A stretch of DNA of 64,000 nucleotides from Streptococcus bovimastitidis (GTDB lineage: Bacteria; Bacillota; Bacilli; Lactobacillales; Streptococcaceae). Position 1 is the first letter of the stretch. Every line of letters starts with the position of its first letter. A model generated the notes under the pieces. The model ran no database searches and had not been told where the DNA came from. It worked only from the letters and a program-made list of their open reading frames with translations. The position numbers were made by a program, and so were the translations under genes. Below are positions 45,259 through 62,653 of the stretch, in pieces. The DNA lies in contig NZ_LZDD01000002.1 in NCBI RefSeq assembly GCF_001885095.1, positions 434,001-498,000 on the forward strand. Reading direction: 5' to 3'.

Positions 45259-45506
45259 AATATTCTCCTAAAATAAGCAGAAAAATAGCCAAAACCCTCG
45301 AAAACTGTACGCCAAAAAGACTTACAATTTCCATGAGCTTTGACCATCATTGAAATATGTTAATAGTATTTTATCAAAATGACTTAAATTGTCAAATATA
45401 ATATTAAATAATTCCGTCAATTTTATTGACAGTATTGTTAAGATTATTGACAATTTTGTAAACGTCTTGTCAATGACATATGTATAGCTTCCTAGGTCCA
45501 CAAATC
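45259..45506. other. Intergenic region with TTGACA/TGTCAA cluster
   Basis: No gene is visible. The region holds TGTCAA at 45390 and 45468 and TTGACA at 45426 and 45447. The related CGTCAA at 45415 forms the perfect hairpin GTCAAT-TTT-ATTGAC with the copy at 45426. It lies downstream of mnmA and upstream of the Nudix pseudogene on the minus strand. Confidence 0.5.
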
Positions 45507-54209: not shown

Positions 54210-55493
54210 CTATTTTGGAAAGACAGTGAAATCTGAAGCCTCAGCACCTTCGAAAAAATCGTTTCCGATGGCTAATATATCATCAAGAGTTATTGTTTCA
54301 ATTATCTGAGGTATTTCAAAATAAGAATCCTGGTCGTTTAAAAAAAGATTAAACTGACTCATCACTTGTTCAATTGAATCTAAACTTTGAACAAAATCCC
54401 CAAACATCTCTTTTTTCAATAATTGCAAATGTTTTAGCGTCAAATCTTTTGATTTAGTAAAATTATTGATTTTTTTTCGAATATTACTAGACATTGCGAT
54501 TGGTTCATTTGTATCAAGGGTTATTAGTAAAAAGGAAAAGTCTCTTTGAATCTCAATTTCCATATCAAAAGAATCATCGATTTTCCCTTGATCGTACCAT
54601 GTTTGATATGTTTTCGAAGTCCACCCGAATAAAAGGGATAGTAGCAGACGTAAACCAACTTTATATCTAAGTATGGAGATATCATTTGTAAACTTTTTAC
54701 CTCTATAACCAACTACTAACTTAGGTGTTGAAATTTCCATACTCATGGAATTAGTCTTAACAATTGGAGAATATGGTAACTTATCTATTGTTGCTTTTGC
54801 CGGTCTCCTTTGTTTTAACCGTTCCTGGCAATCTTCTATTGACCGATAGGTTTCTTCAATATCAACATCACCTACGATAATTAGCGTCATGTTCGAAGGA
54901 TGATAAAACTGTTTGTAGTTTCGTTGTAAATCAGTAGCTGTAATAGATTCTAACGAATTCTGATTTCCAGCAATATCGCTTGATAAAAGACTATTTGGAA
55001 AAAGATTTTGTAAAATTCCGATATAGGATTGATAATCAGGATCGTCAAGGTACATGTCAATTTCTTGCGCTATTATTTTTCGTTCTTTAGCAACACTTTC
55101 CTCTGTAAAGTTTCCTGTCAAGACGAACTCTTGAAGAAGTGTCAAGCACTTTGTAAAGTTGTTACTTGTTGAAAAGAAGTATGAGGTTTTTTCAAATGTT
55201 GTAAAGGCGTTTACATCTGCACCTAAGGCTGTAAAGTAATGAGATACATCCTGTCCAGATTCATTTTCAAATAGCTTATGTTCTAAAAAATGGGCTATCC
55301 CTTCGGGATATTGATATGGTCTATTTCTAACTGTAAAATTGCTGTCAATTGATCCAAAATTAACTGTCAACATTGTTGCTTTTTCTGTAAATAATGGTTT
55401 TTTTATGATATATATTTCTAATCCATTCGTTAACCGTGAATGATAGACTTCTTCTCTTACACTAGCATAGCTAAATTTTTCTATATCTATCAC
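54210..55493 (-). CDS. ymfH: M16-family zinc peptidase, YmfH-type
   Basis: A 427-residue member of the insulinase/pitrilysin family with the intact inverted zinc site HFLEH (in EGIAHFLEHKLFEN) and the downstream glutamate region RKIIAQEIDMYLDDP. It probably forms a heterodimer with the product of the preceding gene. The start is GTG 55491-55493, overlapping the ymfF stop as GTGA. Its role in streptococci is unknown. Confidence 0.9.
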   Translation of the reverse strand: MIDIEKFSYASVREEVYHSRLTNGLEIYIIKKPLFTEKATMLTVNFGSIDSNFTVRNRPYQYPEGIAHFLEHKLFENESGQDVSHYFTALGADVNAFTTFEKTSYFFSTSNNFTKCLTLLQEFVLTGNFTEESVAKERKIIAQEIDMYLDDPDYQSYIGILQNLFPNSLLSSDIAGNQNSLESITATDLQRNYKQFYHPSNMTLIIVGDVDIEETYRSIEDCQERLKQRRPAKATIDKLPYSPIVKTNSMSMEISTPKLVVGYRGKKFTNDISILRYKVGLRLLLSLLFGWTSKTYQTWYDQGKIDDSFDMEIEIQRDFSFLLITLDTNEPIAMSSNIRKKINNFTKSKDLTLKHLQLLKKEMFGDFVQSLDSIEQVMSQFNLFLNDQDSYFEIPQIIETITLDDILAIGNDFFEGAEASDFTVFPK

Positions 55494-56737
55494 TTATCCG
55501 CCTCCAAAAAATAAAGTGCCTGTAATTTGAGATGGTTAGCAGCTTTAATAATATCCATTTTTTTAACAGATTTAATCTTTTTTAACCACAACTCAAGTGA
55601 AAAATCATTGTCAATATAGGATTGTGTATATGAACTGTCAACTAATGCTTTACAGTAATCCTCTGATAAAGCTCCATTAGTTTGAAGCATAAGTTTTGTT
55701 TTTTCAACTAATTGACTAGAAAAACGACCCATTTTTATATCGTTAATTTCCTTGACAATTAATTGTAGTGCTTTTGTCTTATCTTTTTTGTCGATACCTG
55801 CATATATTTCTAATAATCCTGAGTATCGATCAATTTTACTACCAATGCTATATGCAATTCCTTCAGTTTCTCTTATTTTTGTAAATAATCTTGAGTGAGC
55901 ATAAGACCCCAGTAAACCATTTAGAACCGTCAAAGCATAATAATCTTCTTTAAACCTTTCAGATGGAAAATAATAGGCTAATTCCAAAATAGATTGATTT
56001 AACAACTTTTTATCAATTTTTTCTGAAACAATATTGGAGTATTCTTGTTGATAATAAAACGATAACTCCTTTTTTCTTGGTTCAAATGGAAATTGATGGA
56101 ACAATTGAACAACTTTATAATCATCAAATTGACCTAGAATATAGATATCAATTTGATCTTCCATCAGCATTTTATGAAACTCTTGATAGCTTGTATAAGC
56201 AGTCTCTTTATCAACTAAATCTGCTGTTCCATATTTAGATACTTGTAAATCAGTGTCCTTAAAGAAGAGTTCCTTCAATTGTAATGATCCATAATAAAAA
56301 GAATCTTCTTTATCGGATTCAAGGTAGTTCATTAAATTAGTCTTTTCAACCTCAAAAATACGTGGTTGATATTGAGCAACAGATAATAGTGGTGAAAATA
56401 ATATTCCTTTTAATAAGTCAATCACTTCTTCTAAGATTTTTTCACCTTGAAAAGCATAAATATCCTGGATAAATGTAATATCAATATCTACAATATGAAC
56501 CTTTCCTTTAACTGAAACATTTGTGGAAAGACTTGCTCCATATAAATCTGCTAATTTTTCCCTAAATTCTTTTGCTGTTGGATAATCTTCATTGGCTGTA
56601 GCAAGCATTTGAGCTACCAATACCCTTTTAGCAACTAATTTCTGACTCAAATCACCAGAAAATCTTAAAGTTATATGATTTGTTTTGAATTTTTCTGTTT
56701 TTATAAGATGTAGTTGGACACCTTCGACGATTTTCAT
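55490..56737 (-). CDS. ymfF: M16-family peptidase-like protein without zinc site, YmfF-type
   Basis: A 415-residue M16 homologue. The position of the zinc motif reads VAQMLATANEDYPTAKEFR, with no HxxEH, so it is a non-catalytic partner, as in other two-subunit M16 peptidases. It is the first gene of the ymfF-ymfH-rodZ-pgsA-ecfA1-ecfA2-ecfT run, whose spacing is short throughout. The promoter TGGTATAAT lies at 56771-56779. A separate hairpin-ended transcription unit seems to lie just upstream (56850-56934). Confidence 0.88.
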   Translation of the reverse strand: MKIVEGVQLHLIKTEKFKTNHITLRFSGDLSQKLVAKRVLVAQMLATANEDYPTAKEFREKLADLYGASLSTNVSVKGKVHIVDIDITFIQDIYAFQGEKILEEVIDLLKGILFSPLLSVAQYQPRIFEVEKTNLMNYLESDKEDSFYYGSLQLKELFFKDTDLQVSKYGTADLVDKETAYTSYQEFHKMLMEDQIDIYILGQFDDYKVVQLFHQFPFEPRKKELSFYYQQEYSNIVSEKIDKKLLNQSILELAYYFPSERFKEDYYALTVLNGLLGSYAHSRLFTKIRETEGIAYSIGSKIDRYSGLLEIYAGIDKKDKTKALQLIVKEINDIKMGRFSSQLVEKTKLMLQTNGALSEDYCKALVDSSYTQSYIDNDFSLELWLKKIKSVKKMDIIKAANHLKLQALYFLEADK

Positions 56738-56770: not shown

Positions 56771-56776
56771 ATTATA
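56771..56776 (-). promoter_or_regulatory. ymfF operon promoter, extended -10
   Basis: Minus-strand TGGTATAAT, 34-39 bases ahead of the ymfF start and downstream of the hairpin at 56863-56913. Confidence 0.6.
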
Positions 56777-56849
56777 CCATTTTTAAAGAGATTCCTTTGA
56801 GAATAAACACTTTTTTTACTATCTTGTAATTTGTTAGACATTTTTTTAG

Positions 56850-56934
56850 GATAAAAAAGAAGCCCTGAGAATATCAAAGACACTTACTTTGAAGGTCTGT
56901 TCAATTCTCAGAGCATCAATTCTTAAAAATACTG
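56850..56934 (-). ncRNA. Candidate small RNA upstream of ymfF
   Basis: A minus-strand extended -10 TGATATAAT (56940-56945 core) predicts a transcript start near 56933. About 20 bases on, GCTCTGAGAAT pairs with ATTCTCAGGGC (plus-strand ends 56903-56913 and 56862-56872), enclosing an inner stem CTTTGA/TCAAAG-type. The hairpin is followed by TTCTTTTTT. No reading frame of useful length is present. The next gene has its own promoter, so this looks like an independent RNA of about 80 bases, or a leader attenuator. Confidence 0.4.
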
Positions 56935-57032
56935 AAATTATTATATCATAAGAAGTTCTATTTGAGAAGAAGGTCAACATACAGTTTCTAACCAACACTA
57001 ATGCTTTATTATTATTTCTTGCCTATTTATGC

Positions 57033-57065: not shown

Positions 57066-57437
57066 ATGGAATACAAACTATTTACAGAATTTATTACTTT
57101 ACAAGCCTTATTAAAGGAAGTAGGTATAATACAGAGTGGCGGGGCAATTAAATCATTTTTATCTGAGAATATAGTCTTATTTAATGGTGAAGATGAGAAA
57201 CGCCGGGGTAAAAAAATTAGAATTGGGGATGAAATCGAAATACCTGAGCAAGGAGTAAGAATACGATTAGTTGAACCAAGTGAATCTGAGAAAGAAACTT
57301 ATCTTAGTGATCAAGCAGAAAAAGTAAGAGTCGCAAAGTTGGTTAAAGAATTGAATAAATCAACCAAAAAACAAGTAAGCTCAAGTCATACAAAAGCTAA
57401 GAAATCTAATAAACCCGTCCGATTTCCAGGTATGTAA
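57066..57437 (+). CDS. yaaA: S4-domain protein YaaA/YlmH-like RNA-binding (RecF partner gene)
   Basis: A 123-residue protein with a small S4-type RNA-binding domain in the first 75 residues ([24 protein letters not shown]...[10 protein letters not shown]) and a Lys/Ser-rich tail ending [10 protein letters not shown]. The S4-domain gene preceding recF is a conserved arrangement in Firmicutes; a role in ribosome assembly is reported for the Bacillus homologue. The start is ATG 57066 with GGAGA ahead, not the TTG at 57042. It lies two bases before recF. Confidence 0.88.
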
Positions 57438-62378: not shown

Positions 62379-62618
62379 AAAAACCCCCACGCAAAAAATT
62401 GCGTGAGGGCGTTAGAACGCGGTACCACCTCAGTTGATATAATAATATATCATCTCATACTTTCTAAGTAGCAGAAAGTTGCACGATAAGGGGTGCTAGT
62501 CCTGACAGTTATTGATTCCTATCATTATTCATCCATTAGCCCATTTCACTAATTGTGTTACTAGTTCACAGCGACCACTAGTTCTCTTAAAACACAAGAA
62601 AAGTTACTCATCTAATTC
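62379..62618 (-). promoter_or_regulatory. Tryptophan T-box leader of trpS
   Basis: The minus strand carries the T-box sequence AGGTGGTACCGCGTTC (62415-62430) followed by a terminator: CCCTCACGCAA pairs with TTGCGTGGGGG, then T5 (62379-62410). Upstream is Stem III (ACTTTC...GAAAGT near 62461-62480) and a Stem I region. A UGG specifier for Trp is available at 62533-62535 (in TAATGGATG); a second UGG lies at 62541-62543. Confidence 0.9.
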
Positions 62619-62624
62619 AAGACC

Positions 62625-62653
62625 ATTTTATGAAAATTAATGATTTTTGTCAA
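62625..62653 (-). promoter_or_regulatory. trpS T-box promoter
   Basis: Minus-strand TTGACA (62648-62653), a 17-base spacer and TAAAAT (62625-62630). The leader RNA should start near 62618. Confidence 0.75.

Follow-up and report, generated by a model that had tools for sequence, protein, structure and literature searches.

Locus and Predicted RNA Unit

The window analysed here, a stretch of 64,000 nucleotides from Streptococcus bovimastitidis, contains a putative small RNA unit in the gap between ymfF, whose name we adopted from the initial annotation, and a divergently oriented gene, which we take to be yaaA. The features of this region are as follows:

55490–56737, minus strand: ymfF (start at 56737; Pfam Peptidase_M16_C), downstream neighbour of the RNA unit
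56771–56779, minus strand: separate extended -10 of ymfF, TGGTATAAT, retained whether or not the small RNA is present
56853–56861, minus strand: TTCTTTTTT, the U run that completes the intrinsic terminator directly after the hairpin
56853–56933, minus strand: predicted small RNA of 81 nt, with ends deduced from promoter and terminator and the 3' end at the U run
56862–56914, minus strand: terminator hairpin with an 11-pair outer stem and a nested inner stem
56919–56933, minus strand: AGUAUUUUUAAGAAU, conserved segment at the RNA 5' end, lying antisense to secY around its start codon
56940–56948, minus strand: extended -10 of the small RNA, TGATATAAT, with TATAAT identical in eight genomes and without a conserved -35
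57066–57437, plus strand: yaaA (start at 57066; Pfam S4_2), divergent neighbour of the RNA unit

The promoter of the unit reached a scan score of 10/12 with TG and is accompanied by a -35-like TTCTCA, and its probable +1 is the A at 56933. Starting from this nucleotide, a stretch of 19 nt leads up to the hairpin, in which the outer arms GCTCTGAGAAT (56914–56904) and ATTCTCAGGGC (56872–56862) form 11 pairs. Thus, the extended -10, the 11-pair stem, the inner stem, and TTCTTTTTT given in the initial annotation were all recovered, as was an RNA of about 80 bases, while the spacing amounts to 25 bases rather than 20. Folding of the window RNA yielded -25.4 kcal/mol (z of -3.37), a value equalled by 1 of 200 shuffled sequences, and in the minimum-energy fold nucleotides 11–14 are paired with the U tail. 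A promoter scan of a 3-kb region revealed 14 candidates compared to 14.6 expected, i.e., not above chance, and a terminator scan of the same region with a loop limit of 8 listed no terminator. Within its own genome, the unit was found once, with no extra copy at an E value of 0.001.

A single reading frame of at least 40 codons in the yaaA-ymfF gap overlaps the unit (56846–56998, 50 aa); since it starts upstream of the RNA promoter, the predicted RNA does not encode it. By eye, no conserved coding sequence was seen in the aligned RNAs, and the short frame AUG CUC UGA of the window RNA is not retained in genomes G033 and G051. A small peptide gene was rejected as a reading of the unit. Regarding the surroundings, the ymfF gene of a related genome (G167:C1:2231312-2232549) appears to be broken into two fragments, of which one contains an in-frame stop. 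S. catagoni, G015, and G078 (loci L014, L023, and L024) carry different promoter-plus-terminator-like units in the yaaA-ymfF gap, which by eye do not resemble the present one; small RNA genes may be preferentially located in this gap. Elsewhere in the window, Rfam models matched a T-box leader (62402–62629, minus strand, 105.3 bits) as well as Spd-sr37, a small RNA of Streptococcus (45292–45358, minus strand, 79.2 bits).

Conservation of the RNA Unit

The unit was also identified in S. penaeicida (L012), S. pseudoporcinus (L013), G033, and G051, and the YmfF proteins of the window and S. penaeicida share 96% identity in their best segment. In an intergenic alignment of these five genomes, with gaps counted as changes, 18–19 of 20 columns were invariant between the -10 and position +15, compared to 6–9 of 20 in the spacer windows before the -10 block and 3–10 of 20 in the hairpin and just beyond it. 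Covariation, which the initial annotation had suggested looking for, is present among these closest genomes: three stem pairs are changed on both sides, giving two or three compensatory pairs. Two of them separate the window and S. penaeicida from the other three genomes, and the third is insecure because it is altered in the window only and broken in S. penaeicida.

Using the exact pattern TATAAT-N7-GTATTTTTAA, which covers the -10, the spacing, and the start and would miss divergent copies, we searched 284 Streptococcus genomes and obtained one match each in nine, eight of them upstream of ymfF, namely in the window, S. penaeicida, S. pseudoporcinus, G033, G051, G279, G165, and G091. TATAAT is identical in the eight carriers, a result that also draws on a second pattern applied to 29 of these genomes. 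The ninth match (G083), which lies between a triosephosphate isomerase-like gene and tuf as judged from their translations, was taken as chance. A hairpin plus U run was predicted in all eight carriers, including G279, G165, and G091, whose terminators have their own sequences; the U run is weaker in S. pseudoporcinus, G033, and G051 (CTTTTATGAT). In the seven relatives, the predicted RNA length is 59–100 nt.

A covariance model built from the five close sequences and run on 26 genomes revealed only weak matches outside the ymfF locus (best 31.8 bits, E value of 0.15). At the ymfF locus, it weakly matched sites in G165 (31.2 bits) and G091 (24.0 bits), both of which were later also matched by the exact pattern. 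Plus-strand matches of up to 46 bits (G051) at the same place were taken to mirror the symmetry of the hairpin. Phage and plasmid collections contained no match to the unit. Altogether, the occurrence of the promoter-plus-start block upstream of ymfF in 8 of 284 genomes, together with compensatory hairpin changes in five of them, supports the proposal of an unannotated transcription unit and candidate small RNA, and on sequence grounds a conserved small RNA gene is very probably real. Its conserved -10 block in the eight genomes would constitute a promoter separate from those of the neighbouring genes.

Phylogenetic Distribution

In a YmfF tree of 22 genomes, six of the eight carriers form one well-supported clade, which includes S. 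pseudoporcinus and S. penaeicida and in which every sampled member harbors the unit. The other two carriers, G165 and G091, lie within a second YmfF clade of six genomes. In G153 (L208), another member of this second clade, the unit has decayed to a remnant between 210 and 88 bases upstream of ymfF, with the terminator side recognisable by eye and the promoter and 5' segment gone, and in three further members, G018, G125, and G044, neither unit nor remnant was seen. The presence of the unit requires two changes on the tree. A single old origin followed by losses fits this distribution; two gains are possible as well.

Complementarity to the Start of secY

The conserved 5' segment of the RNA is complementary to a translation start elsewhere in the genome, a match that was absent from the initial annotation. 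The corresponding feature is:

G000:C1:1087414-1087432, outside the window: secY start codon region, antisense to the RNA 5' segment (SecY by Pfam PF00344, 330.8 bits)

RNA nucleotides 1–14 (AGUAUUUUUAAGAA) are the exact complement of secY coding positions 4–17 (AUG-UUC-UUA-AAA-AUA-CU), and nucleotide 15 can join the G of the AUG in a G-U pair, so that the predicted pairing spans the G of the start codon to codon 6. It begins at the predicted +1 and extends just as far as the conserved part of the RNA. The exact 14-mer AGTATTTTTAAGAA occurs only twice in each of the genomes G000, G228, G033, G051, and G234, once in the RNA gene and once antisense in secY; a search with the 19-nt block allowing two mismatches, in which site counts are to be read as "at least", also matched the secY start on the opposite strand. 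For the window strain and S. penaeicida, a duplex of 20 bp with one bulge was predicted at -17.6 kcal/mol. Regarding the first 15 nt only, the complementarity is intact in seven of the eight carriers (-14.0 to -15.1 kcal/mol), including G165, in which the presumed +1 is a U unpaired with secY and 14 pairs remain. In G091, one change in this segment reduces the predicted pairing to 10 bp and -8.0 kcal/mol. Species that lack an intact RNA gene, such as G153, G164, G125, and G018, possess the same secY start sequence, and due to this identical site in species lacking the RNA, no signal of co-evolution between RNA and secY can be read from the comparison.

As a control, 435 start regions were collected by a simple script from 464 kb of the window's genome (G000), i.e., the window and a further 400 kb that includes the secY stretch by design. 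By duplex energy, secY ranked first among the 435 regions. Since 3 of 60 shuffled 20-nt segments also reached -17.2 kcal/mol somewhere in this sample, duplex energy alone is weak evidence. Exact complementarity was far rarer: only 139 of 200,000 shuffled 15-mers matched any of the sampled start regions by an exact complement of 14 nt, corresponding to about 0.003 when scaled to the roughly 2000 genes that we estimate for this genome. Among the 428 real 15-mers that follow a TATAAT at a distance of 7 nt within the 464 kb, one revealed such a complement in a start region off its own locus, namely the small RNA; as the secY stretch had been placed in the sample on purpose, the fair control is 0 of the 427 others. 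Because the same secY site occurs without the RNA and the duplex energy is not exceptional, secY is a good yet unproven target.

In the relatives analysed here, secY is preceded by a gene that, read from its translation, we take to be rplO. The ribosome-binding site of secY (GAGGGG) lies inside a short inverted repeat, AUGAGGGG(UAA/AUA)CUCAU, in all eight carriers (L097–L101 and L213–L215; folded in five), which may itself affect secY translation. For pneumococcus, a published study describes secY within a 22-gene cluster together with 21 ribosomal-protein genes, with rplO directly before secY (PMC6560143).

Interpretation and Alternative Readings

Our best reading of the unit, to which we assign a probability of about one half, is a trans-encoded small RNA that blocks translation of secY. 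The extended -10 promoter would drive a stand-alone RNA (81 nt in the window) ending at the intrinsic terminator, and its nucleotides 1–14 or 1–15 would serve as a mostly single-stranded seed. By pairing with the secY mRNA from the G of the AUG to codon 6, this seed would stop binding of the 30S subunit and lower translation of SecY, while the upstream ribosomal-protein genes of the same operon would be left untouched. Against a freely available seed speak the predicted pairing of its nucleotides 11–14 with the U tail in the window RNA and, in G165, its folding onto the RNA itself at -9.4 kcal/mol.

As the comparison covered just a portion of one genome's start regions, the strongest rival reading is a real small RNA gene whose targets are different mRNAs or a protein, with the secY match being a coincidence. 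We consider this less likely, though by no means far-fetched: the secY site is identical whether the RNA is present or absent, its duplex energy does not stand out, and the comparison covered the 435 script-predicted start regions of a single genome. Against a coincidence speak the rarity of exact 14-nt start-region complements among shuffled 15-mers, their absence from the 427 other promoter-proximal 15-mers, and the position of the match on the secY start codon with its edge at that of RNA conservation. Another interpretation takes the conserved block mainly as a DNA operator controlling the promoter, so that the RNA would be a by-product or have an unrelated role. The block from +3 to +16 is a near-palindrome, TATTyTTAArAATA, and its conservation could therefore reflect a DNA-binding site; 10 to 14 of its 14 positions are self-complementary in the eight genomes, and G091, in which the secY pairing is broken, carries a perfect palindrome. 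However, the palindrome is poorest in the window's genome and in S. penaeicida (10/14), and the secY match would be left as chance. The perfect form TATTNTTAANAATA was absent from the 464 kb sampled from the window's genome, which thus gives no hint of a regulon built on such operator sites. Overall, an operator as the main function appears improbable.

The initial annotation had also considered an attenuator, in which case the unit would be a 5' leader of ymfF with a promoter before a conditional terminator and some transcripts reading into the gene. Position and strand suit this idea, as does the weak U run in S. pseudoporcinus, G033, and G051. Yet the separate ymfF promoter, already proposed in the initial annotation and located here as the extended -10 at 56779–56771, lies downstream of the unit in all eight carriers and is also conserved in unit-free relatives; across the loci checked, it reads TGGTATAAT in 16 of 17 and TGTTATAAT in L023. 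Moreover, the 5' segment displays no shared pairing with the RNA body: predicted pairing is weak in the clade of six carriers (-3.3 to -5.6 kcal/mol), the stronger self-pairing in G165 (-9.4 kcal/mol) is not shared, and no alternative pairing that would open the terminator is conserved across the eight carriers. The yaaA-ymfF gap, too, measures just 43–107 bases, too short for a leader, in 17 of 32 loci (L026 of the 33 was left out, and some yaaA positions were read by eye). Finally, no Rfam leader or riboswitch model reached its threshold in the unit, in a scan of the window and nine related loci other than L149 of G165 and L155 of G279, and a T-box or riboswitch leader was rejected. With a conserved promoter of its own for ymfF and no shared antiterminator, attenuation is thus quite unlikely and a separate small RNA likely. 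Least plausible of all, and hardly to be expected, is the absence of any gene, with a promoter-like word and a hairpin arising by chance in an AT-rich spacer; promoter-like words are as common here as in shuffled sequences, whereas the island of conservation, the same block before ymfF in eight genomes, and the compensatory stem changes all argue against chance.

Returning to the repression of secY by a trans-encoded RNA, we tentatively suggest that the unit represents an undescribed streptococcal RNA family dedicated to this task by pairing of its 5' end with the start codon, which would uncouple SecY from the ribosomal-protein operon. Such a family would have been inherited throughout the sampled S. 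pseudoporcinus/S. penaeicida clade and would be decaying in the neighbouring clade. If this is true, these streptococci tune their essential protein-export channel by a small RNA, apart from the ribosomal proteins of the same operon. The prediction is a sharp one, comprising 15 nt and one start codon.

Comparison with Known RNAs

A search against Rfam 15 revealed no family at the gathering threshold in the window unit or in nine related loci; a similarity to the nqrA-II motif (RF04310) was weak, with 20.4 bits compared to a gathering score of 55. Among the small RNAs of streptococci, the csRNAs are short, possess their own promoter and terminator, and are marked by a CiaR direct repeat, TTAAG-N5-NTTAAG, at the promoter. 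The exact repeat was found near the promoter in none of the eight genomes, and a CiaR-controlled csRNA was therefore rejected. Like the unit, the csRNAs are small RNA genes of streptococci (PMC3091779), while the unit differs by its single copy in its own genome and by its predicted target secY. MarS of S. pyogenes is likewise a small RNA transcribed on its own in a pyogenic streptococcus; it is described at another locus, by Spy49_0957c, and with mga as its target, and the text of that paper mentions neither recF nor secY (PMC5613026).

In the literature on secY and small RNAs, judged mostly by titles, we found no natural trans-encoded secY RNA of this kind. RNA-level events at a Gram-positive secY, as proposed here, are reported for Staphylococcus aureus, with an antisense RNA ("as secY") and processing of the secY mRNA by RNase III (PMC3386247). 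That antisense RNA is encoded in cis, and RNase III cleaves within the coding region, whereas the unit would be trans-encoded and directed at the start codon. A further parallel is offered by the Listeria vector pHOSS1, in whose counterselection cassette an artificial antisense secY RNA prevents production of SecY (PMC12596718), which indicates that antisense control of secY is workable. While that RNA is man-made and inducible, the unit described here would be a natural gene.
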